From: Candidatus Desantisiibacteriota bacterium
Lineage (GTDB): Bacteria; JACRDZ01
Assembly: GCA_016209155.1 (NCBI GenBank)
Contig: JACQWU010000221.1
Coordinates: 1-16,116, forward strand
DNA length: 16,116 bases
Reading direction: 5' to 3'
Translations under genes and position numbers: made by a program
Notes under the pieces: generated by a model
What the model was told of the DNA's origin: nothing
The model's database searches: none
What the model saw: the letters and a program-made list of their open reading frames with translations, nothing else
Part shown: in pieces, positions 5,198 through 15,605 of the stretch
Layout: each line of letters starts with the position of its first letter
Position numbering within the stretch: the first letter of the stretch is position 1

Positions 5198-5828
5198 ATT
5201 TCAATCCACGCGCCCGCAAGGGGCGCGACAAGCGATCTAATTGTCAACCGCATCAAGCAAAAGTTTCAATCCACGCGCCCGCAAGGGGCGCGACCTGCGT
5301 CCACTGATCAGGACGACACAGGGGGGGGTTTCAATCCACGCGCCCGCAAGGGGCGCGACTCGTGTCCGCGTCCGAGCCTGCGTCCACTGATCAGGTTTCA
5401 ATCCACGCGCCCGCAAGGGGCGCGACCAATCCATCGTGTCCGCGTCCAATCCTGACCAGGTTTCAATCCACGCGCTCGCAAGCCCGCAAGGGGCGCGACA
5501 TGTAATAACCGCAATCGGAGAAAAACTTGAAAAGTTTCAATCCACGCGCCCGCAAGGGGCGCGACTCCATAAATCCATTGGAGTATTCATTGGTGTCCCT
5601 GGTTTCAATCCACGCGCCCGCAAGGGGCGCGACTGTATCGTACGTTAATTCTATCGAGGACCCAGGTTTCAATCCACGCGCCCGCAAGGGGCGCGACCAA
5701 AGTGGAAAGATAGGCACAGCTATTGGGTTCGTTTCAATCCACGCGCCCGCAAGGGGCGCGACATTCTCAATTTGAATTTTTTGTAAAATGTTACTTGTTT
5801 CAATCCACGCGCCCGCAAGGGGCGCGAC
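5198..5828 (-). CRISPR. type I-C-like CRISPR array, 10 repeats and 9 spacers
   Basis: Repeats are 32 bases, on the plus strand starting GTTTCAATCC and ending GGGGCGCGAC; the transcribed minus strand starts GTCGCGCC and ends GGATTGAAAC, the classic I-C form. The RNA hairpin has a 7-bp stem (CGCGCCC/GGGCGCG) and a 5-base loop. Repeats start at 5198, 5263, 5328, 5395, 5460, 5534, 5602, 5666, 5731 and 5797. Spacers are 32-36 bases. The leader and cas2 are on the right, so the newest spacer is at 5763-5796 and the oldest at 5230-5262. The leader-distal repeat at 5198 has one terminal substitution, as expected for the old end. The repeat at 5460 is 40 bases because of an insertion. Spacers 2, 3 and 4 counted from the left share sequence. 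Confidence 0.98.
5460..5499 (-). repeat. aberrant CRISPR repeat with 8-bp internal duplication
   Basis: This repeat is 40 bases instead of 32. After the common first 16 bases it reads TCGCAAGC and then CCGCAAGGGGCGCGAC, so an 8-base unit of the loop/stem region is present twice, once diverged. The duplication splits the 7-bp stem: the outer 5 bp can still pair, but the inner part would bulge or refold. Confidence 0.9.
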
Positions 5829-6015: not shown

Positions 6016-6306
6016 TTATACAATTAATGGCCCCTCCAAATCCACTATACTTTTTGCTCCAATATGTTCTACTTTTCTTTTCCAATTTGACCCGAGAAAA
6101 TAAAATCTCAAACTGTCTTTTTCTTCATCTATTTCATCTATCAATTTTTGCCGCAATACCGCCCATTGTGTTGGGTCAATATTACATTCAAATACTGAAT
6201 ACTGAACCCGCTGTCCGTAATTTAAACAAATTTTTGCTACATGACGCAAGCGTTTTGCACCGCCGGGGTCAGATGTCATAACATCATAACTTACAAGAAC
6301 AAGCAT
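6016..6306 (-). CDS. cas2: CRISPR adaptation protein Cas2
   Basis: A 96-aa protein with the typical I-C Cas2 sequence: N-terminal strand MLVLVSYDV with the conserved Asp at residue 8, GGAKRLRHVAKICLNYGQRVQYSVFEC in the middle (quoted positions about 15-41), and a C-terminal LRFYFLG...VEHIGAK. Cas2 forms the dimer that bridges two Cas1 dimers in the spacer integrase. I chose the ATG at 6306 because AGGAG lies 6 bases before it; the in-frame ATG at 6312 directly abuts AGGAG. The reading frame is open further upstream through a GC-rich palindrome, but those codons look non-native. Confidence 0.95.
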   Translation of the reverse strand: MLVLVSYDVMTSDPGGAKRLRHVAKICLNYGQRVQYSVFECNIDPTQWAVLRQKLIDEIDEEKDSLRFYFLGSNWKRKVEHIGAKSIVDLEGPLIV

Positions 6307-6321
6307 GTTCATCTCCTTTTT

Positions 6322-6343: not shown

Positions 6344-7375
6344 CTACCGCCAGATAAAAACAGGATATCCATCTAAATCACCGCGCAAATGACGGGATAA
6401 CAATAATGCCTGAATATAAAATAATAAACCCACCGGAACAGTCTCTTTTATAAATGGATGCATTATTTCCTCTTGTTTCCGTTTTTGATAAGCAACTAAA
6501 ACAATTTTACGGGTATCATCATCCATCAGCACAGCTCCGGATTCTGATTTTTTAAATCCCTTTTTTTGAACCTGCTCCCGGTTAATCAAAGATAAAACCA
6601 ATCTATCAGGTAAAAATGCCCTAAATTCCTCCATTATATCTAAAGCCAGTCCCGGCCGTCCGGGTCTATCTCTATGCATAAAACCAACGTATGAGTCCAA
6701 ACCAACAGATTCTAATGCGGAACGTACATCATGCGCTAAAAGTGTATATAAAAAAGATAATAAACAATTCACTTCATCAAGCGGCGGTCTGCGGTTTCTT
6801 TCTTCAAATTTAAAATCATTTTTTTGCGCAACAATTAAATGATCAAAAACAGAAAAATAAGAATGCGCAGAATCACCTTCAATCCCGCGTAATACATCTA
6901 ATTCTAAATTATTTTCAAGATGCCTTAATGAAGAACTTAAATTTTTTGAAGCATTGGAAATTTCCTCTAAATTAATTTTATCACTATGGTCTCTTATTGC
7001 TCTTTGTAATACTGTTCGTGAATTTGAAATTTTCCCAATTAAAATCGACCTTGCTATTTCAGATGCATATTTCATATCATCAGCACGCCGATATTGTTCA
7101 CGACGCAAAAGCACATTGCCCGAAGTCTTACCATGAACTCTTGCTAAAAAATGCCCATATTCTGTTAAAAAGCTTATTGTAACATTATTTTCAGCGCAAA
7201 AGCCCATTAAAAAAGGGCTTAGCATTACATTGCCAAAACATACAATACTGCCAAGAGTATGAATTGGCGCTTGCAGCTTAACTTCCTTTTCAACAGAAAC
7301 AACCACAGTTTCGCCTTCTTTAGAAAGATAAGCTCCCTGTGTAGTTATAAAAAGTGTATTAAGATATTTTTTCAT
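6344..7375 (-). CDS. cas1: CRISPR spacer integrase Cas1
   Basis: A 343-aa full-length Cas1 of the I-C type, the nuclease/integrase that inserts new spacers together with Cas2. The N-terminal beta domain begins [20 protein letters not shown]. The C-terminal catalytic domain has the expected metal-binding positions: Glu 166 in LRGIEGDSA, His 234 in VGFMHRDRPGRP, and the LALDIMEEFR motif (Asp 246/Glu 249). The protein ends DGYPVFIWR, a normal I-C Cas1 terminus. GAGGA stands 5 bases before the ATG. It is the only intact cas1 here; the first 32 codons of a second copy lie at 8799-8894. Confidence 0.96.
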   Translation of the reverse strand: MKKYLNTLFITTQGAYLSKEGETVVVSVEKEVKLQAPIHTLGSIVCFGNVMLSPFLMGFCAENNVTISFLTEYGHFLARVHGKTSGNVLLRREQYRRADDMKYASEIARSILIGKISNSRTVLQRAIRDHSDKINLEEISNASKNLSSSLRHLENNLELDVLRGIEGDSAHSYFSVFDHLIVAQKNDFKFEERNRRPPLDEVNCLLSFLYTLLAHDVRSALESVGLDSYVGFMHRDRPGRPGLALDIMEEFRAFLPDRLVLSLINREQVQKKGFKKSESGAVLMDDDTRKIVLVAYQKRKQEEIMHPFIKETVPVGLLFYIQALLLSRHLRGDLDGYPVFIWR

Positions 7376-7421
7376 TTAAATCCTCAATCAACATAATTAC
7401 TTCTTAGGCTGCCAATATTTT

Positions 7422-7766
7422 TTAATGTTTCTTCAAACTCTTTTTACTTCTTTTTTTGTTCGAATATATAAAAATTTCAGATTTCAGATCATCAAAAACA
7501 GGAATTTGTTCTATAACAGCCAAAATAGAGCGAACCTCACCGGCTGACCCGCGTGCATAATATAAAAAAGCAATCAATTCCTGAGTAGTTCCACGTTCAA
7601 ATCCTTCAGCTATATTGTTAGGGATAGATAACGCTGCCCGTTGAATCTGATTGGCTATATCACCTTTAAACCTAAATCGTTTATCTTCTATGAGTTTAAA
7701 CACCTCTGTAGTTAATTTAATTCCATCCTGCCACACAGGAACATTTTCAAACCGATCAAATGTCAT
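7422..7766 (-). CDS. S23/IVP-type four-helix-bundle protein
   Basis: A 114-aa protein of the '23S rRNA intervening sequence'/S23-type four-helix-bundle family, beginning MTFDRFENVPVWQDGIKL and containing the family signature SIPNNIAEGFERGT. Members are small helical oligomers; some occur in rRNA intervening sequences and relatives (Avd) in diversity-generating retroelements, but the general function is unknown. It has its own AAAGGAG ribosome site (7772-7778) 5 bases before the ATG, so it can be made alone. However, the frame is open upstream through the cas4 remnant, so a 276-aa Cas4-remnant fusion starting at 8252 is also possible. It sits inside the cas operon just before cas1, in the same orientation. 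Confidence 0.85.
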   Translation of the reverse strand: MTFDRFENVPVWQDGIKLTTEVFKLIEDKRFRFKGDIANQIQRAALSIPNNIAEGFERGTTQELIAFLYYARGSAGEVRSILAVIEQIPVFDDLKSEIFIYSNKKRSKKSLKKH

Positions 7767-8252
7767 AATATCTCCTTTACAAATTTCAAATTTCAAATTT
7801 TCTTTTAGATAATCAACCACCGATGTTTTTCTCCCTATTGCTTTTGGCATACATATATCAAAAAACGAACATGAATCACATTTTGCCATATAAACCGGTT
7901 TAGGTGTTTTACGCGCATCAATAAAATCATGCAAACGAACAGCCGTATCTTTTGTTTCTTTACATAACGCATCATCAAACTCAACATCAAAACGATGCCG
8001 GGTCTTACCATAAAAAAGCGCGCCTGATGGTATTTTCACATTTAACATTTCTTCAAGACACAAAGCTTGAGCGCAAAGCTGAATTTTATCGCAATCATCC
8101 ATCTTTGGTTTTCCTCTTTTATATTCTACAGGAAAAGGAATCCAGCACCCTGATTCATCTTTATGAAACTCAACAACATCCGCTTTCCCGTTTAACCCAA
8201 GTTCAGTAGAACGCAAAGGCATACCACGTTCAATTCTTACATCATTCCTCAT
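7767..8252 (-). pseudogene. second cas4 copy, N-terminus missing, fused in frame to a four-helix-bundle gene
   Basis: About 150 residues homologous to residues 54 to about 203 of the intact Cas4 encoded at 9765-10400; by eye about two thirds of positions agree. It keeps the nuclease motifs GKADVVEF and FPVEYKRGK and the C-terminal cysteine cluster CDSCSFFDIC. It lacks the first 53 residues, including YCQRRC (the N-terminal Fe-S Cys) and the HDKAH motif, so a functional 4Fe-4S nuclease is unlikely. Homology starts right after a 9-bp repeat tract (8250-8276). At the other end, the native stop is gone and the frame runs through an AT-rich AAATTTGA repeat into the four-helix-bundle gene. Probably inactive, unless the shortened domain has acquired a new role. 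Confidence 0.85.
7781..7801. repeat. AAATTTC/GAAATTT repeat at the cas4-remnant/four-helix-bundle junction
   Basis: About three tandem copies of a 7-base unit (AAATTTC on the plus strand) where Cas4 homology ends and just before the ribosome site of the S23-type gene. It resembles the repeat at 4674-4707. It may be a breakpoint or part of the inserted segment. Confidence 0.5.
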
Positions 8253-8276
8253 AAGTCCTATAGGTCATATACGACC
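8250..8276. repeat. 9-bp tandem repeat tract after the four-helix-bundle suffix gene
   Basis: Three 9-base units on the plus strand, CATAAGTCC, TATAGGTCA and TATACGACC, followed by TATT. They start at the gene's stop codon (TAG, 8276-8278) and end where homology to cas4 begins. They are the same kind as the in-gene tract at 8392-8418. Confidence 0.75.
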
Positions 8277-8791
8277 TATTTTTTTTCAAATTCTTTTTCC
8301 AAAGCCCGCAGCTGCTGATCAAGCAAAAAGTTTGTTTGGTGAATCAGGCAAATAATGGTGTTTGCCGCAACTTCGGGAGGTGAAGCCTCAATATAGGACT
8401 TATAAGTCGTATAGGACCTATTCTTCGCCCAAGCCATTTTCCTGACAGCTTGGGCTTTTGGGTGTTCTTTTCCCCAAAAGGGAAGTCCTTTTTGCCGCAA
8501 ATAGTCCTCAAAATCAAGAAGCAGCTCTTCCTGACTTGCCCGCGCCACGCCAATGAGTTTTAGCTCAGTCTTTTTAGAAGTGCCTGACGCCATGCAACCC
8601 TCGGCAATATTCTGCTTACCGCTTCGAGCTGCCTGCACCATTTGGTCATGTGTACGGGATCGGCGATCAATAAAACGGTCGCAAAATTTTACCGTAGCGT
8701 CATAAACAATCTCAGACATCTGGTAAGACTTGAGATCGCGATAACCGCCGTGAGGCGGAATAAGCTTAGGGGATTCTTTTGGATTAAGCAT
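8276..8791 (-). CDS. four-helix-bundle suffix domain protein
   Basis: A 171-aa protein of the 'four helix bundle suffix' family. It begins with the typical [24 protein letters not shown] and carries NIAEG (residues 61-65), the signature shared with S23-type bundles. Residues 125-134 ([10 protein letters not shown]) come from a 9-bp tandem repeat with a three-residue period, a pattern I recall from other members. Its molecular function is unknown. The start ATG overlaps the end of the truncated cas1 reading frame (AATGCTTAA), and GAGGT from cas1 codons 31-32 serves as a plausible ribosome site. So the gene sits exactly where the second cas1 breaks off. On its other side is the truncated cas4. 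Confidence 0.85.
8392..8418. repeat. 9-bp tandem repeat tract inside the four-helix-bundle suffix gene
   Basis: Three units, TATAGGACT, TATAAGTCG and TATAGGACC on the plus strand, followed by TATT, encode the Ser/Thr-Tyr-x repeats of the protein. A sister tract with the same period and the same TATT flank lies at 8250-8276 after the stop codon. Confidence 0.75.
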
Positions 8792-8894
8792 TTTTATTTA
8801 CCTCTTTTTCTACTGAAACTACTACAGTTTCACCTTCTTTAGAAAGATAGGATCCCTGTGTAGTTATAAAAAGTGTATTAAGATATTTTTTCAT
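8784..8894 (-). pseudogene. truncated second cas1 (first 32 codons)
   Basis: A 36-codon reading frame whose first 32 codons match intact Cas1 almost perfectly (one change, Ala to Ser at residue 15). By eye the first 42 bases are identical and the next 54 carry about 10 differences, mostly synonymous. After codon 32 the homology stops and the frame ends four codons later, inside the start of the four-helix-bundle suffix gene. The ATG overlaps the stop of the Bro-N gene (TAATG). Too short to fold as Cas1; a remnant. Confidence 0.9.
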
Positions 8895-9721
8895 TATTTT
8901 ATCTTCTTTTGAGATTCTTTTTCTGTTAAATAATTATTTCCGGAGACAATAGGTCTTTTCAACCGTTTCTCCAGAGCTTTTCTGGCATTACCGGCAATAC
9001 TTCCGCCGGCATTAGCGTCTGCTTTAAGTTTTTTTATTCCTTGTGAATTTTCATTCCTATGAATTTCTGTTGTGGATCGTTCTCCGAGCATTGTAAAAAT
9101 TAACTCAAAATCATCCATATGATCACGAAGATTCTCCCGTTTAAGTCCTTTTACTTCCTTATATTGTGAAGGGGTGATCCCAAATGTAGCTTTAGATATT
9201 TCCGCTGTTAAAATTTCATAATCCTTCTCTTCTTTCGCGCCGCGATTCTGCCATTCATCGGTCAGTTCTGCGCGAATAGCAATCCCGCGCATACGTTTTT
9301 CAATCCAGTCGTCACTGTAGCCTTTAAGTTTATAAAGCATTCGCGTTCTTTTTGTTGATAGTTCCGGATCCTCAATTTCTTGAATTCTTTCGTATCCAGT
9401 TTTTGCCAACCAGCGTTTTAATGGTTCTGCTTTTGGTGATGGGATTGACTGGATAATTCTTAATATTCCCTCTGTATTAGCGCAATCCGTTTCATATTTT
9501 TTACCGTCAGAAGCTTCCAATTTCAGTCCGTGACAAAATGTCACGACCTCACTTCCTTCTTCCGATAATCGTTGTTTAAGCTTTCGCCAATACGCGCCTG
9601 CATCCACACTATCAGTAAGAACACCGCACACATCAACAACCGAAAACCACCATTCGTTTTGATGTAAAACTTTTCTAATTTTTTTACCTTTAAAAATTGC
9701 GATTTTTGTTTCTAGTTGCAT
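8894..9721 (-). CDS. Bro-N domain (antirepressor/DinD-like) protein
   Basis: A 275-aa protein. Residues 1 to about 110 match the Bro-N DNA-binding domain found in phage antirepressors and baculovirus BRO proteins ([22 protein letters not shown], with [13 protein letters not shown] following; quoted in parts). The C-terminal part resembles DinD/'BRO family' bacterial proteins, with a basic tail ([11 protein letters not shown]). Such proteins are usually linked to phages or DNA-damage responses; the exact role is unknown. AAAGGAG lies 9 bases before the ATG. It sits 43 bases after the intact cas4, and its stop overlaps the start of the cas1 remnant, so it is embedded in the cas operon. Probably an inserted gene, possibly regulatory. 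Confidence 0.8.
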
Positions 9722-9764: not shown

Positions 9765-10400
9765 CTACTCACATTCAGAACTTTTAATAATATCTTTAAG
9801 ATAATTTGCAACAGTTGTTCTTTTTTCAAATGTTTTTGGAAGACAAATTTCCAATAAAGAACATTCTTTGCATTTTTTAGAATATTCCGCTTTTGGAGTA
9901 ATTTTTGTCATAACAAGTTCATAAACTTTTTTTATCGTTTCTTTAGTTTCTATTCTTAAACTTTCATCAAAATTCACATCTTCCCGCCGCTTTGTCTGTC
10001 CATAAAAAAGTGCTCCACAAGGTATTTTTACATTTAATATTTCTTCAAGACACAATGCTTGCGCACAAAGCTGAACTTTATCGCTATTATCAGATTTAGA
10101 TTTTCCTCTTTTGTATTCAACCGGGAATGGAATCCATTTATCAAATTCATCTTTGTGAAACTCAACAACATCAGCTTTTCCATTTAATCCAAGTTCATTC
10201 GAACGCAAAGGAATACCTCGTTCAATTTTAATATTTTTTCTTATTTCAAAATTTTCCTCATGTGCTTTATCATGCATAATTCTTCCTTCAGCAGTGAAGA
10301 CATTTTCTACCCAAGCTTGTTCAATATGAACCAAAGCACATCTCCGCTGGCAATACATATAATGACTAAGTGCTGAAATCATTACAAATTCTTCATCCAT
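9765..10400 (-). CDS. cas4: CRISPR adaptation nuclease Cas4
   Basis: A 211-aa intact Cas4, a RecB-type nuclease with an Fe-S cluster that trims prespacers and selects PAM and orientation with Cas1-Cas2. Visible motifs: YCQRRC (Cys 17 and 21), HDKAH (His 43), GKADVVEF (Asp 77), FPVEYKRGK (Glu 95, Lys 97), and the C-terminal cluster CKECSLLEIC (Cys 177, 180, 186). I chose the ATG at 10400 because AGGG lies 6 bases before it and the protein then begins MDEEFVMISAL, normal for Cas4; an upstream TTG at 10415 is less likely. It begins 11 bases after the cas3 stop. The diverged, truncated second copy at 7767-8252 makes it the only functional cas4. Confidence 0.95.
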   Translation of the reverse strand: MDEEFVMISALSHYMYCQRRCALVHIEQAWVENVFTAEGRIMHDKAHEENFEIRKNIKIERGIPLRSNELGLNGKADVVEFHKDEFDKWIPFPVEYKRGKSKSDNSDKVQLCAQALCLEEILNVKIPCGALFYGQTKRREDVNFDESLRIETKETIKKVYELVMTKITPKAEYSKKCKECSLLEICLPKTFEKRTTVANYLKDIIKSSECE

Positions 10401-10411
10401 TTTTATCCCTA

Positions 10412-12619
10412 TCAAATAATAAAATTTTCAGGAGTGTTATCAAGTTTTAACACTCCAGCCATATAACCTAAAAAATCTTCGTCATAATCCAATAACCATA
10501 AATATAAATCATTAAATCCATGTAATGGTTCTAATGCATACAAATCAATTCTATTGCTATAAATAGCTACTGATTTTTGTTGCAATTCCATAAAATCAAT
10601 CTTCTCGTGCCGTTCTATTCTTTCTTTTAAATCCTTATCAATAATAGTTGTTACGGTATTAGAGGGAATGATTTTAAACTGTTCCTTTACAGATGGAAAC
10701 TCTTTATTCCTTTCAGCTATAACTATAGAATTATTATCTGCTGATGTTTGATTCTTTTCCCGTACTTCACGCTTCATGGCTTCTGTACAAAATTCAGAGA
10801 ATATTTTTCCTTCATCATACATTTGTTTCAAAACTTTAGATGAAGTTAGAAATGTTGGATGCTCTCTTAAAAAACCTCCTAGAGAAATTTGAAAACCCCA
10901 TAAATTACTTATCCCATATTCACCGGATCTATTTATTCGTCCTGCAGTTTGAAGTGTGCTCGTAAGACTACAAAACTCTCTTGCTGCTGTATTAAATGAG
11001 AAATCCACACCAGCCTCAACACAAGAAGTAGCTACTAATGTCCAGTCTTTATCATTACGATTTAAAAGTCTTTGTTTTATTCTGTCAATTATTTTTTTCC
11101 TATGAATCGGGGCTAAAGCTGTTGAAATATGTTCAACATATTTTCTATCTCCATGTAATTCACATAATCGTTTAGCAACTGCTGCTGCTGAATGCACAGT
11201 ATTCAGAATAAGCAATCTAGGCCCATCCATATTTTTTATCCAATTACAAAGTTCATCCATATTTAAAGATTTTTCTTTTTTTAAATATTTTACCCTTACG
11301 GATTCACCTTTTATTGCCTTATTACGAATAACATCAGTAACAAGTTCTGGAATATTTTTAGATGGTGGATTTGAGAATTCTTCAAGTTCCCAAAAACGAT
11401 TTAACGAACCTGATGCTAGCACAATATAGCAACCCCAATCATCAACAAGTTCTTTTAACCATTTCCATGCTTGCGCCCAGAGTGATGCAGGTAATGTAGC
11501 ATGTGTTTCGTCAATAAATATTGCAGATCCAGCAAGTTGATGGAGTTTGCGCAATGAGCTTGTACGGTTGGTTGCCAGCGTTTCAAAAAACTGCACTGCA
11601 GTAGTTACGGTTACAGGAGCATTCCATAAAAATGAAAAAACTCGTGTACTTTCATCTTCAAACTCAGCTTTATGGTGATGTGCCGCAATTACTTTTTCAG
11701 GATTTTCATCTGGTAAAATTAATGCTTTACGATATATATCAACAGATTGTTCAATAATATTTGTAAAAGGTAATACAACAAATATACGGCGTAATTTTTT
11801 AATTTTTGCGATATTTAGTAAATGCGCCATTACAGCAGTTGTCTTTCCTGTTCCTACAGGACTGTCACAAGTAATTATTCCTTTATCAGATATTGGCGCA
11901 TTTCGACATGCTTCGTATATCTCCTGCCGCAGATTATCTCTTTCTATTTTTGAAGGATCACCACTAGTAAGACCTTTAACAAAATTATCCAATAGCGAAA
12001 GTCTTTCATCTGCCTGTAATAATATCTCTCCACTAGGAACAACGCCATTATAATTACGAGCTGTATCGGTATGATCAGCATCTACAAGACATGAAAGTCC
12101 AATTCTCATAAATAACTGAGTAGGAGTTATTTCTTTAGATTGTGATTCTTTTATATCTGGGAAAAAATTCAAAAGACTTTTATTGTCTTCCATGTATTTA
12201 TTTAATGATTGGTTCATAAGTTCTTTTATTGTTATATCACGGAAAATATTTCCTTTACCCTTTGCATTCTCTTCCGGCAATGATGGTAACCCTATATGAT
12301 GAGAATATACAAACAAAGCAGCAAGGTTTTCTGCTATAGACAAATTCCCTGATTGCAATGCTGCAACACCACAATCAACATGATTTATCGGAAGACTACC
12401 TTTACAATTTCTACGTTCTAATATTCGTTGATTTTCAGGAGCAAGTTTTCCTAAATCATGAAAGAATGCAGCATATTTAACAGATGCTAATAATAATTCT
12501 CTATATTTTGTATGTACCCCTGCTTTTTCAGCATTAGTAATTGCTGAGTTATACACATTAAGAATGTGTTCTTCATATGGTTGTGCAGGGATATCTTTTT
12601 TTGCACTATGTGCTAACAT
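10412..12619 (-). CDS. cas3: CRISPR helicase-nuclease Cas3
   Basis: A 735-aa single-chain Cas3 that unwinds and degrades target DNA after Cascade binding. The N-terminal HD nuclease has FFHDLGK (His 54, Asp 55), His 80, SHH (about 106-108) and the Cas3-typical DADHTDTARNYNG (180-192). The SF2 helicase has Walker A SPVGTGKTT (253-261), a DETH box (370-373) in place of the more common DEAH/DExH, motif III SGS (403-405) and motif VI QTAGRINRSG (557-566). The start overlaps the cas7 stop by 7 bases with GGAG 5 bases upstream, so the two are translationally coupled. In standard I-C loci cas3 is the first gene; here it lies between cas7 and cas4. Confidence 0.95.
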   Translation of the reverse strand: MLAHSAKKDIPAQPYEEHILNVYNSAITNAEKAGVHTKYRELLLASVKYAAFFHDLGKLAPENQRILERRNCKGSLPINHVDCGVAALQSGNLSIAENLAALFVYSHHIGLPSLPEENAKGKGNIFRDITIKELMNQSLNKYMEDNKSLLNFFPDIKESQSKEITPTQLFMRIGLSCLVDADHTDTARNYNGVVPSGEILLQADERLSLLDNFVKGLTSGDPSKIERDNLRQEIYEACRNAPISDKGIITCDSPVGTGKTTAVMAHLLNIAKIKKLRRIFVVLPFTNIIEQSVDIYRKALILPDENPEKVIAAHHHKAEFEDESTRVFSFLWNAPVTVTTAVQFFETLATNRTSSLRKLHQLAGSAIFIDETHATLPASLWAQAWKWLKELVDDWGCYIVLASGSLNRFWELEEFSNPPSKNIPELVTDVIRNKAIKGESVRVKYLKKEKSLNMDELCNWIKNMDGPRLLILNTVHSAAAVAKRLCELHGDRKYVEHISTALAPIHRKKIIDRIKQRLLNRNDKDWTLVATSCVEAGVDFSFNTAAREFCSLTSTLQTAGRINRSGEYGISNLWGFQISLGGFLREHPTFLTSSKVLKQMYDEGKIFSEFCTEAMKREVREKNQTSADNNSIVIAERNKEFPSVKEQFKIIPSNTVTTIIDKDLKERIERHEKIDFMELQQKSVAIYSNRIDLYALEPLHGFNDLYLWLLDYDEDFLGYMAGVLKLDNTPENFII

Positions 12620-13506
12620 TTTTTCTCCATTAAATCTTCAATGCTTTTAACTTTGCTTTTTAATTCATCTGATAATTTATCGAGAATATCATATTCATCG
12701 CGTGATGAAGACCATTTATTTGGTTCTGATTTTTTTTTAGGTGTCAGTGCATCAATAAGCTTATAATCCGGGCATGAACCAAGCGGCGATGAATGCTCAA
12801 TGTACCAAGCATGCAGCAATTCAACATTAGACCTGATATATGATCGTGTGTGAGCGTAAGCATGAGGAATAAGAGCAAGAAGCAAATCAATATCAGGTTT
12901 TGTACATCCGGTATTCCGTTCACCGCTTGCGGCACTTGGGTTAATAAAAAATGGCATACAATAAATACCGTGTTTCACAATTCTGTATGCCATTGGAGCC
13001 ATACCTCTGTCCTTATCCACTTCAACCCCAGCCTTACTTGTATTTGTGCTTCGCTCAATATCAATAGGAGCAAGTGAAAGCCCAAGTCCAAATTGAACAA
13101 CACCAGTTTTAATAGTTGTTGATGCCCCTGTTTCTAAAAAAGTATTTCCAAATACTCTACCATCCCAATATTTCTTTTTAAACGCATTAAAGTCATTTGT
13201 TAATAGCTTCGTAATCTCATCTCTCTTTCTCCCTCTTGATTCAAGAATTGCATAATCATCATTATTATTTAAATTTAATTTTTTGTTTATTTCAGTCCAA
13301 ACTAACCCTTGTTTATCTTCCACCAAATCCCTCAATTTACGTTTAAATGAAACAGGAGAGATTTCGCCTTTTCCATCTGGACGCTGACGAGGATCACTTT
13401 CACGATCAGGATCTCCATTTGGATTTGAATTAATAACCTCAATAACTAATAAACCCGTTGCGCGCGTAATTGGTTGTTCTGTCTTTACACTATTTTGTTC
13501 TGTCAT
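12613..13506 (-). CDS. cas7: Cascade backbone subunit Cas7 (Csd2/DevR-type)
   Basis: A 297-aa Cas7 family protein that would polymerise along the crRNA as the Cascade backbone. The N-terminal ferredoxin-like strand GLLVIEVINSNPNGDPD carries the NPNGDPD signature (about 28-34) of the Csd2/Csh2 group, followed by SPVSFKRKLRDLV. The middle has Asn/Thr-rich loops and a FGLGLSLAPIDIERSTN stretch that leads to the variable thumb. An AAGGAG lies 9 bases before the ATG and 26 bases separate it from cas8. The sequence fits the type I-C/I-B branch of Cas7; I assign I-C from context. Confidence 0.92.
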   Translation of the reverse strand: MTEQNSVKTEQPITRATGLLVIEVINSNPNGDPDRESDPRQRPDGKGEISPVSFKRKLRDLVEDKQGLVWTEINKKLNLNNNDDYAILESRGRKRDEITKLLTNDFNAFKKKYWDGRVFGNTFLETGASTTIKTGVVQFGLGLSLAPIDIERSTNTSKAGVEVDKDRGMAPMAYRIVKHGIYCMPFFINPSAASGERNTGCTKPDIDLLLALIPHAYAHTRSYIRSNVELLHAWYIEHSSPLGSCPDYKLIDALTPKKKSEPNKWSSSRDEYDILDKLSDELKSKVKSIEDLMEKKC

Positions 13507-13532: not shown

Positions 13533-15605
13533 TTAATTGCTCTCTGATTTCGCCATATATCCAAGTAACATTTGTGCTTTATCTGCATCGGAACACCGAA
13601 TAGGAATTGTTAATTCTCTTAATTGATTGGTGATATCACCAATCTGACTCAAAAAATATTTAACCAGTCCTACATCCTGATTTTCACCAAAAAAAGTTTT
13701 TGCCCATGATTGATAGGGAAGAATCCTTTGACTTAGCATACTCAATGCCTTTTCTGGTTCTTCCAAAGCTGTTGACATTAGAGCATTTCCAACCAATTGC
13801 GGCGGGATAGAACCTTTTCGTACATGCTGACAATATTTTAAATGAAGATCATCAGAAATACTTAAAAATCGTCCAATAAGATATGTTGGTGAATTCATAT
13901 ATTCTCCTTTTTCTATATTAATTTTATAAAGCAATAAACCAAGTATCGAAGGTAGAAGCAATGCCTGTTTTTCATAATTTTTATTTATTTTAAAAACTCT
14001 GCCAGATGCAGCTTCTTGCCCAATTGATAAAAGTAGTTGAGAGCAATTTTTTATAATTGTATCTATTGCCCTTATAGAAAACATTTTCACTACATCTCCT
14101 TCATCAAGAAGCAAACAAAGAGCATCGTTTATTGAAAATCCATGTATACGTTCAGCATATGATCCCTGTCGTCGCCAAGCAGTGTTTAAACACCAAACAA
14201 CTTCTGCTGGAAATGGAACTAAACATGGTTTCCACATTGGAGTTCCGTTTTCAAATTGTCTTATTTTAATATTAGGAATATTGAGACATCCTATCTGCCA
14301 GTTTTCAGCGGATTTTACTGTATGTTCAGTAGTATATCTTTTATTAACTATAACTTTTGTTCTTGCATCTCCTGGTCTTTTTACAAGAACAAATATTCTT
14401 ACTTCGTTATTTGTAAAACCTGACGCAATACCTTTAAGAGTCTGCGTTACTCTCGAAGCAATCGCCGAGAAGGTCACTCCATCAGGATCAATAGCATCTT
14501 CTTCACCCCCTCCCATTAATCCGGCAAGTTCAGGAACTGCATCAGGCATTTTTGCAGGATATGCAAATAGGATTGAAGAATTATCTATATTTTTTGTCAG
14601 GTCAATCCATGTTTTAGTTTTTCGTGCATCATCAGAAAGCCATTCAAGAGCCCCTTTCATTTCTTTACGTGCATTTGCTCCAATTGGAAATGAAGCAGCA
14701 TCGATCATGCCATATCGTTTTTGACATTGTGATTCACTACTCATAGCACGCAATATAACATTTCCAAGAACTGACATACGAACAGAAGGAAACTTTTCTT
14801 CCCATCCTATGTCATTGTCATTAAAAGCATCCTTATTAATCTCACCTGCTATTCTTCCTTGATCAGTAAAATTCATGAATCTATCATTCATCCATCTTTG
14901 AACAGTTGGATGATTAGCAGGATAACTCGCTTTAATTTCTCCCCAATAATTAATTTCAAAAACTAGCTGAAATTTTGCTGTTTTAGCTGTTTGAAAAAGC
15001 ATATCCATAAAATCCGAATTCATATTTACCATTAATTTTTGCAATATTTTCTCTTTCAAATTTTGATGGAAAATTTTTACATTTACTTTTTTTGCTCTTT
15101 CTAATAATTCTTGAATTGATAAATATTCAGAAGGTATCTTTCCAAGCTTTTCTTCAATTTCTGTTATTGCTCTCGATAAGCATAAATTAATTTTTGAAAT
15201 AATAGTGTCATCCCAATTAATAACAAAATTATTAATAAGCTCATTAATTTTTGCAGATTCTACTGGGTTACCTTTTTTCAAGTATTTTTTGATTTGATTT
15301 ATTTCTTTGATCAATATATCATTTTTTTCTTTGATTGATTTATTACCTTCATCGTCTTGCATTTTGAAAAGGGGTGGAACATTAAAAGCTGGGAAAGAAC
15401 ACCCATTTGATTTTTCCCATTTCCTAATGCTTCTGACATCAAAATCAGGTTCAGGCAGTGCGATGTCATTAATACCATCAGTTTTATCAAGATAAATAAA
15501 ACAAGTAGTTGCATTAGGACATTTTTCGAAATTAGGATGCCAATCTGTTAATTGAATTCCAGCATTAATAAGACTTTGCGAAAGTTCCCTAAGTTCATTA
15601 AGCAT
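13533..15605 (-). CDS. divergent Cas8 large subunit, probably Cas8c-like
   Basis: A 690-aa protein in the position of the Cascade large subunit, which would recognise the PAM and recruit Cas3. I do not see the usual Cas8c/Csd1 beginning, and it is larger than the roughly 600 aa usual for that family. There is a Lys/Glu-rich helical region around 90-200, a YGMIDAASFPIGANARKEMK segment in the middle, and a helical C-terminus with YLIGRFLSISDDLHLKYC that loosely recalls the Csd1 'YLLGRL' segment. The ATG at 15605 is chosen because GGAGG lies 8 bases upstream; it overlaps the cas5 stop by 8 bases. The identity as Cas8 is inferred from gene order, size and this weak C-terminal resemblance. Confidence 0.75.
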   Translation of the reverse strand: MLNELRELSQSLINAGIQLTDWHPNFEKCPNATTCFIYLDKTDGINDIALPEPDFDVRSIRKWEKSNGCSFPAFNVPPLFKMQDDEGNKSIKEKNDILIKEINQIKKYLKKGNPVESAKINELINNFVINWDDTIISKINLCLSRAITEIEEKLGKIPSEYLSIQELLERAKKVNVKIFHQNLKEKILQKLMVNMNSDFMDMLFQTAKTAKFQLVFEINYWGEIKASYPANHPTVQRWMNDRFMNFTDQGRIAGEINKDAFNDNDIGWEEKFPSVRMSVLGNVILRAMSSESQCQKRYGMIDAASFPIGANARKEMKGALEWLSDDARKTKTWIDLTKNIDNSSILFAYPAKMPDAVPELAGLMGGGEEDAIDPDGVTFSAIASRVTQTLKGIASGFTNNEVRIFVLVKRPGDARTKVIVNKRYTTEHTVKSAENWQIGCLNIPNIKIRQFENGTPMWKPCLVPFPAEVVWCLNTAWRRQGSYAERIHGFSINDALCLLLDEGDVVKMFSIRAIDTIIKNCSQLLLSIGQEAASGRVFKINKNYEKQALLLPSILGLLLYKINIEKGEYMNSPTYLIGRFLSISDDLHLKYCQHVRKGSIPPQLVGNALMSTALEEPEKALSMLSQRILPYQSWAKTFFGENQDVGLVKYFLSQIGDITNQLRELTIPIRCSDADKAQMLLGYMAKSESN

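Follow-up and report, generated by a model that had tools for sequence, protein, structure and literature searches.

The stretch of DNA analyzed here, termed the window, is 16,116 nucleotides long and represents the entire contig C132 of a draft MAG (3.08 Mb, 78.8% complete, 352 contigs). Its minus strand carries, in this order, cas5, a cas8c-like gene, cas7, cas3, cas4, the segment under study, cas1 and cas2, followed by a CRISPR array. The I-C-like cas5 gene at the contig end (15598..16026) has no Pfam or NCBIfam match and is, by tblastn, 65% identical to its counterpart in locus L099 and 45% to that in L091. The gene for the cas8c-like large subunit (13533..15605) shows 48% identity to the cas8 gene of L099, and its weak Cas_Csd1 match remains below the cut-offs (Csd1/Cas8c, 25.2 bits versus 218.65 for subtype I-C). 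The subtype I-C cut-off of 182.25 bits is also not reached by the Csd2-like cas7 gene (12613..13506; PF05107, E 8e-51; TIGR02589, 107.8 bits), which precedes a cas3 gene with HD and helicase parts (10412..12619; TIGR01596, PF22590) and an intact cas4 gene (9765..10400; TIGR00372, 142 bits). On the far side of the segment are an intact cas1 gene (6344..7375), whose match to Cas1c is far above the cut-off (TIGR03640, 526 bits versus 385), and cas2 (6016..6312; TIGR01573, PF09827; 84% to the cas2 of L104). The adjoining array (5199..5828, recorded without strand) was recognized by its tandem and self repeats in units of about 65 bp, which are 68-78% alike in self-comparison (repeat plus spacer). 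Since Cas1c is clear but Cas8 and Cas7 are under the I-C cut-offs, the system is named I-C-like here. It shares with subtype I-C the cas4-cas1-cas2 order and the array beside cas2, but differs in the effector order cas5-cas8-cas7-cas3 and in the accessory genes that interrupt its adaptation genes.

Structure of the interrupted adaptation segment

The segment reads cas4, Bro-N, cas1 stub, four-helix suffix gene, N-terminally truncated cas4', S23, cas1 and cas2 in a single orientation, a structure far beyond chance expectation. Gene order, strand and junctions are as the initial annotation had described them, including the TAATG overlap and AATGCTTAA, both present in the sequence, and the gene strands bear out its statement that the operon is co-oriented throughout. 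The Bro-N gene (8894..9721, minus strand, as are all parts of the segment; 275 amino acids; PF02498, E 1e-12; 86% to L104/L111, both with the gene ahead of cas4) is the sole undamaged gene among the inserts and is full length, as are the intact cas4, cas1 and cas2. It is followed by cas1' (8795..8894), i.e., the first 32-33 codons of a cas1 gene, which match positions 7278-7376 with 90% identity over 99 bp (E 7e-33). The suffix gene (8276..8791; TIGR04258 and TIGR02436) passes the TIGR04258 cut-off of 40 with 48.9 bits, yet covers only positions 1-33 of 49; it ends in ALEKEFEKK and a stop codon where its relatives run on with EGGFTERLYRTRSQMR, so that about 19 C-terminal residues are missing. 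A filler of 8253..8275, which, as read from the sequence, resembles a repeat within the suffix gene (8400-8425), joins it to the cas4' remnant (7780..8252), which lacks about 50 N-terminal codons and matches TIGR00372 from position 51 onward.

The S23-type four-helix gene (7422..7766; PF05635, E 2e-21) matches TIGR02436 at positions 1-82 of 109 and departs from the model thereafter, and its usual C-terminus lies in another frame past an A-rich run, indicative of a C-terminal frameshift. The initial annotation had proposed an in-frame fusion of cas4' and S23. Both do share an open reading frame, but S23 has a start codon and a ribosome site of its own (7764-7766), and the apparent fusion is therefore a read-through of the stop-less cas4'. 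While the S23 and suffix genes match families of 23S rRNA intervening-sequence or four-helix bundle proteins (TIGR02436, TIGR04258), the window copies are located in a cas operon instead of an rRNA gene and are truncated or frameshifted. Since cas4, cas1 and cas2 remain full length, spacer acquisition is probably still functional in this operon.

With respect to cas1', the first 42-43 coding bases are identical to those of cas1, and the later differences are nearly all synonymous. This pattern, which is explained no less well by a once-functional second cas1 gene than by a decayed copy, suggests an origin from such a once-functional gene by module exchange rather than from decay of a copy of the present cas1. 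Because the differences are almost only synonymous, module exchange and insertion can be separated only in part for the window.

Two adaptation modules of different lineage

The initial annotation had derived the segment from an ancestral cas4-cas1-cas4-cas1 arrangement that arose by duplication. Its recognition of two adaptation modules held up, whereas the duplication did not. The two cas4 sequences are 78% identical at the DNA level over 292 bp (E 2e-65), and in a Cas4 tree of 86 sequences they were paired in none of the 200 bootstrap trees, by which a tandem duplication with the copies as closest relatives is ruled out. The cas4' remnant is sister to the cas4 of L104 (support 100/84), and the intact cas4 is nearest to those of the Nitrospirota loci L049/L050. 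Bro-N, cas4', cas1 and cas2 each have their nearest or almost nearest relative in L104, a locus with the order Bro-N-cas4-cas1-cas2. In the Bro-N tree, the window gene is sister to that of L104 (95/77), within a clade that comprises the window, L104, L111 and L061 (99/94). The operon contains parts of two I-C adaptation modules of differing lineage. One, lineage A, is represented by cas3-cas4, and the other, the L104-like lineage B, by cas4'; Bro-N, cas1 and cas2 are likewise close to lineage B. Two I-C adaptation modules, together with insertions, thus make up the locus.

Replacement of the 3' part of one cas1 and the 5' part of one cas4 by the suffix gene, as initially envisaged, is at odds with the related loci, at least six of which carry the suffix gene directly upstream of an intact cas4. 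Since it is a normal upstream neighbor of cas4 in these relatives, the suffix/cas4' joint would be explained more simply by a deletion of about 300 bp that took the end of the suffix gene and the start of cas4'.

Occupancy of the slot beside cas4 and distribution of the inserted genes

A scan with cas1 resulted in 78 loci from many phyla, the open reading frames of which were compared by similarity searches; the same scan of viral contigs returned no relatives. In the cas1 relatives, genes are often found on either side of cas4, in the gap toward the last effector gene or in that toward cas1. Our own count was based on the 28 loci with at least 66% identical cas1 and a readable region. Whole or fragmentary Bro-N, suffix, RhuM, Fic or S23 genes are located beside cas4 in 22 of these closest I-C relatives. 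L049 and L063 have another occupant or an unassigned gap, and the slot is empty in the remaining four (L047, L053, L060, L062). The order Bro-N-cas4-cas1-cas2 is found in L035, L039, L041, L072 and L104, and suffix-cas4-cas1-cas2 in L037, L038, L040, L043, L044, L046 and L052. More distant I-C loci mostly have an empty slot or one with small genes that resemble toxin-antitoxin genes by their sequences. For the I-C slot, recurrence of these five gene types immediately ahead of cas4, or in the interval between it and cas1, is hence established. The insertion hot spot that had been suggested for four-helix genes is supported and extends to Bro-N and similar genes, and the proposed comparison with I-C loci lacking the inserts yielded both empty and differently occupied relatives.

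The Bro-N tree requires a minimum of 6-9 label changes between I-C and other locations, and Bro-N must therefore have reached I-C operons several times independently. Adaptation operons with S23 genes were also observed outside the I-C relatives: a second, unrelated operon of the same genome has the order cas1-cas2-S23-cas4 (L269, G000:C29, 12548-14946), a genome of the same phylum has cas1-S23-cas2-cas4 (L268, G001:C37, 8160-11254), and in a third genome the adaptation operon is devoid of S23 (L272, G041:C60). Since these orders differ, S23 arrived in adaptation operons at differing joints.

Relatives of Bro-N are present in 46 of 386 genomes. Most Bro-N and suffix genes sit away from cas genes, and a CRISPR-dedicated role of Bro-N was rejected since most copies are located elsewhere. 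Its occurrence in only 4 of 50,697 phages and 11 of 72,556 plasmids likewise led to the rejection of a phage or plasmid passenger. Restriction-type genes are frequent neighbors of Bro-N, but control open reading frames also lie in defense-rich regions, and no enrichment of defense genes is therefore claimed.

Stubs, direct repeats and the origin of the segment

Several of the related loci exhibit a 5' stub, an inserted gene and then the complete form of the gene to which the stub belongs. This applies to L104 and L066, where Bro-N has a cas4 stub before it and a full cas4 after it; L051 harbors another cas4 stub, and in L052 a 182-bp suffix stub (84.6% identical) stands ahead of Bro-N and the full suffix gene follows. 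Of the 47 Bro-N genes with readable flanks, 17 (16 of 46 without a locus that is counted twice, L129/L212) lie between direct repeats of 28-129 bp, versus 6 of 232 other open reading frames of the same regions, and randomly cross-paired flanks of different loci gave repeats in 2 of 200 cases. About two-thirds of the Bro-N loci are without flanking repeats. Repeats also flank 7 of 26 RhuM genes. For S23 (2/27) and suffix genes (4/26), the flanking repeats are mostly low-complexity motifs, and no such claim is made for these families.

The repeats are locus specific and often correspond to the beginning of the gene downstream (cas4, hsdR, proS, dinB), e.g., as stubs of proS in L179 (81 bp, 97.5%) and dinB in L211 (68 bp, 97%); L204 differs in that the 3' end of hsdM was copied. 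L188 (G001:C93, 9090-14659) shows the order hsdR'-BroN-hsdR'-DUF1016-hsdR with an older Bro-N fragment upstream. In L193 (G354:C31, 747-5720), one leader of 100-128 bp including the first codons has been copied four times and precedes BroN, RhuM, DinD-like and AlbA-type genes; the region as a whole is an array of orphan genes that also contains an ASCH-like one. The names proS, dinB, hsdR, DinD and AlbA were read off the translations, and Pfam backs dinB, hsdM and DUF1016. Across the genomes, locus-specific direct repeats thus often surround Bro-N and RhuM genes, typically with a 5' stub before and the full gene after. A single syntenic empty site (G393 versus L191) fits, but lies within a tandem gene array; the families of L179 and L188 provided no clean empty site, and the neighborhood of L196 was too repetitive.

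The window follows this scheme in part. Its cas1' and cas1 share the form of stub, inserted gene and full gene, and the 99-bp pair of 90% identity flanks a compound insert (suffix-cas4'-S23). No stub was found ahead of Bro-N or between the suffix gene and S23. The simple stub rule therefore fits only partly, because the compound insert splits the stub from cas1 and the other stubs are absent.

In our assessment, a permissive slot in a subtype I-C-type operon underwent repeated insertion and recombination, and the segment is the resulting scar rather than a new machine (probability of roughly 0.6); it is not a new CRISPR system. A foreign orphan gene would enter at or near a start codon, and the insertion would be accompanied by a long target duplication, which could arise via a staggered break with fill-in or via template switching. 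Insertions would survive only if they restored a complete downstream gene and left co-transcription undisturbed. The inserted genes would decay, as exemplified by the suffix gene, which may have been truncated and joined to cas4' by a deletion, and by the frameshifted S23, and recombination between I-C modules would add to the insertions.

The different lineages of cas4 and cas4', the synonymous-only divergence of cas1' and cas1, and the known exchange of effector and adaptation modules (PMC12669027) would also be compatible with pure module recombination. In that case, an incoming adaptation module would have recombined homologously on the downstream side and joined illegitimately on the upstream side, thereby replacing most of the resident cas1-cas2 and leaving the resident cas1 stub; the small genes would be passengers that the two modules already carried. 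Such an origin is somewhat unlikely: the stub would be expected to adjoin the lineage A cas4, yet Bro-N intervenes and groups with the incoming L104-like lineage, and the stubs of L104, L066 and L052 require an insertion process regardless. A highly improbable source of the order is an assembly chimera of strains or loci within the MAG. The assembly is a draft of 352 contigs and the window a whole contig, but the joints resemble those of independently assembled loci, the sole long identity of the cas1 and cas1' starts is not located at the new joints, and the orientation and overlaps of the genes are tight. A simple chimera at the identical first 42-43 bases could not yield the order, because cas1' continues into diverged sequence.

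That Bro-N, suffix, RhuM or Fic proteins cooperate with the CRISPR operon or protect it, as regulators or CreTA-like addiction modules, is quite improbable, even though occupancy is high in this cas1 clade, the intact Bro-N is well conserved (86%) and further copies reside between cas12a and cas4 (L176) and beside cas9 (L180). The occupants are unrelated, interchangeable and often broken (L035, L055 and L059, as well as the suffix and S23 genes of the window), four close relatives lack an occupant, and Bro-N and suffix genes are mostly found away from cas genes. CreTA, the toxin-antitoxin of class 1 CRISPR-Cas systems (PMC10097628), likewise represents a passenger within or beside cas operons, with the distinctive feature of being RNA based and kept in check by the effector.

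The closest precedent for repeated insertion with target duplication comes from restriction-modification systems, all types of which are stated in a passage of PMC3031569 to insert with "long and variable target duplications" with reference to Nobusato et al. 2000, a study also cited for long target duplication in a passage of PMC3874152. Common to both is a transposase-less gene between long, variable and locus-specific direct repeats, and restriction-modification operons (hsdR, hsdM) are themselves among the targets observed here. In contrast, the mobile genes of the present study are Bro-N, RhuM and perhaps suffix instead of restriction-modification genes, the targets include CRISPR adaptation operons, arrays of repeated stubs occur (L188, L193), and no clean strain-pair empty site was obtained. 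Our search of the literature retrieved no paper connecting Bro-N or four-helix genes with cas operons; long target duplication for Bro-N and RhuM genes and within CRISPR adaptation operons appears to be new. Insertion at the slot would explain the odd genes between effector and adaptation genes in many I-C operons of uncultured anaerobes, and adjacency alone should not be taken as grounds for calling such neighbors CRISPR accessory proteins. The arrangement of 5' stub, inserted gene and full gene offers a searchable signature of a mode of mobility so far mainly described for restriction-modification genes, including for families whose movement has no known enzyme.

A sequence search for a solved structure retrieved none. 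The best PDB match of the predicted Bro-N model (pTM 0.65) is DdrC of Deinococcus (E 4e-6, TM 0.41-0.50). DdrC binds broken and nicked DNA. Participation of the Bro-N protein in its own insertion is thinkable but unproven. A far-reaching extension, unlikely as a whole, would be that the DdrC-like Bro-N genes and the RhuM genes are transposase-less single-gene mobile elements that enter defense operons (I-C, V-A and II CRISPR, restriction-modification) at start codons, copy 30-180 bp of the target each time, possibly since their own break-binding product directs the insertion, and prefer CRISPR adaptation operons.

Two Bro-N genes were encountered beside other CRISPR types. In a type V-A locus (L176, G125:C3, 8933-10364), one lies between cas12a (Cpf1) and cas4 and overlaps both of these neighbors, and the other immediately precedes a cas9-like gene (HNH, RuvC), with a CRISPR-like array nearby (L180, G191:C209, 4524-8708). 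Short tandem 8-12-mer motifs, variants of GTCCTATA/GACTTATA, are present at 8256-8285 and 8400-8425 of the window, and the S23 or suffix genes of L154, L166, L172, L226 and L229 likewise contain or border 8-12-mer motifs, which differ from genome to genome.
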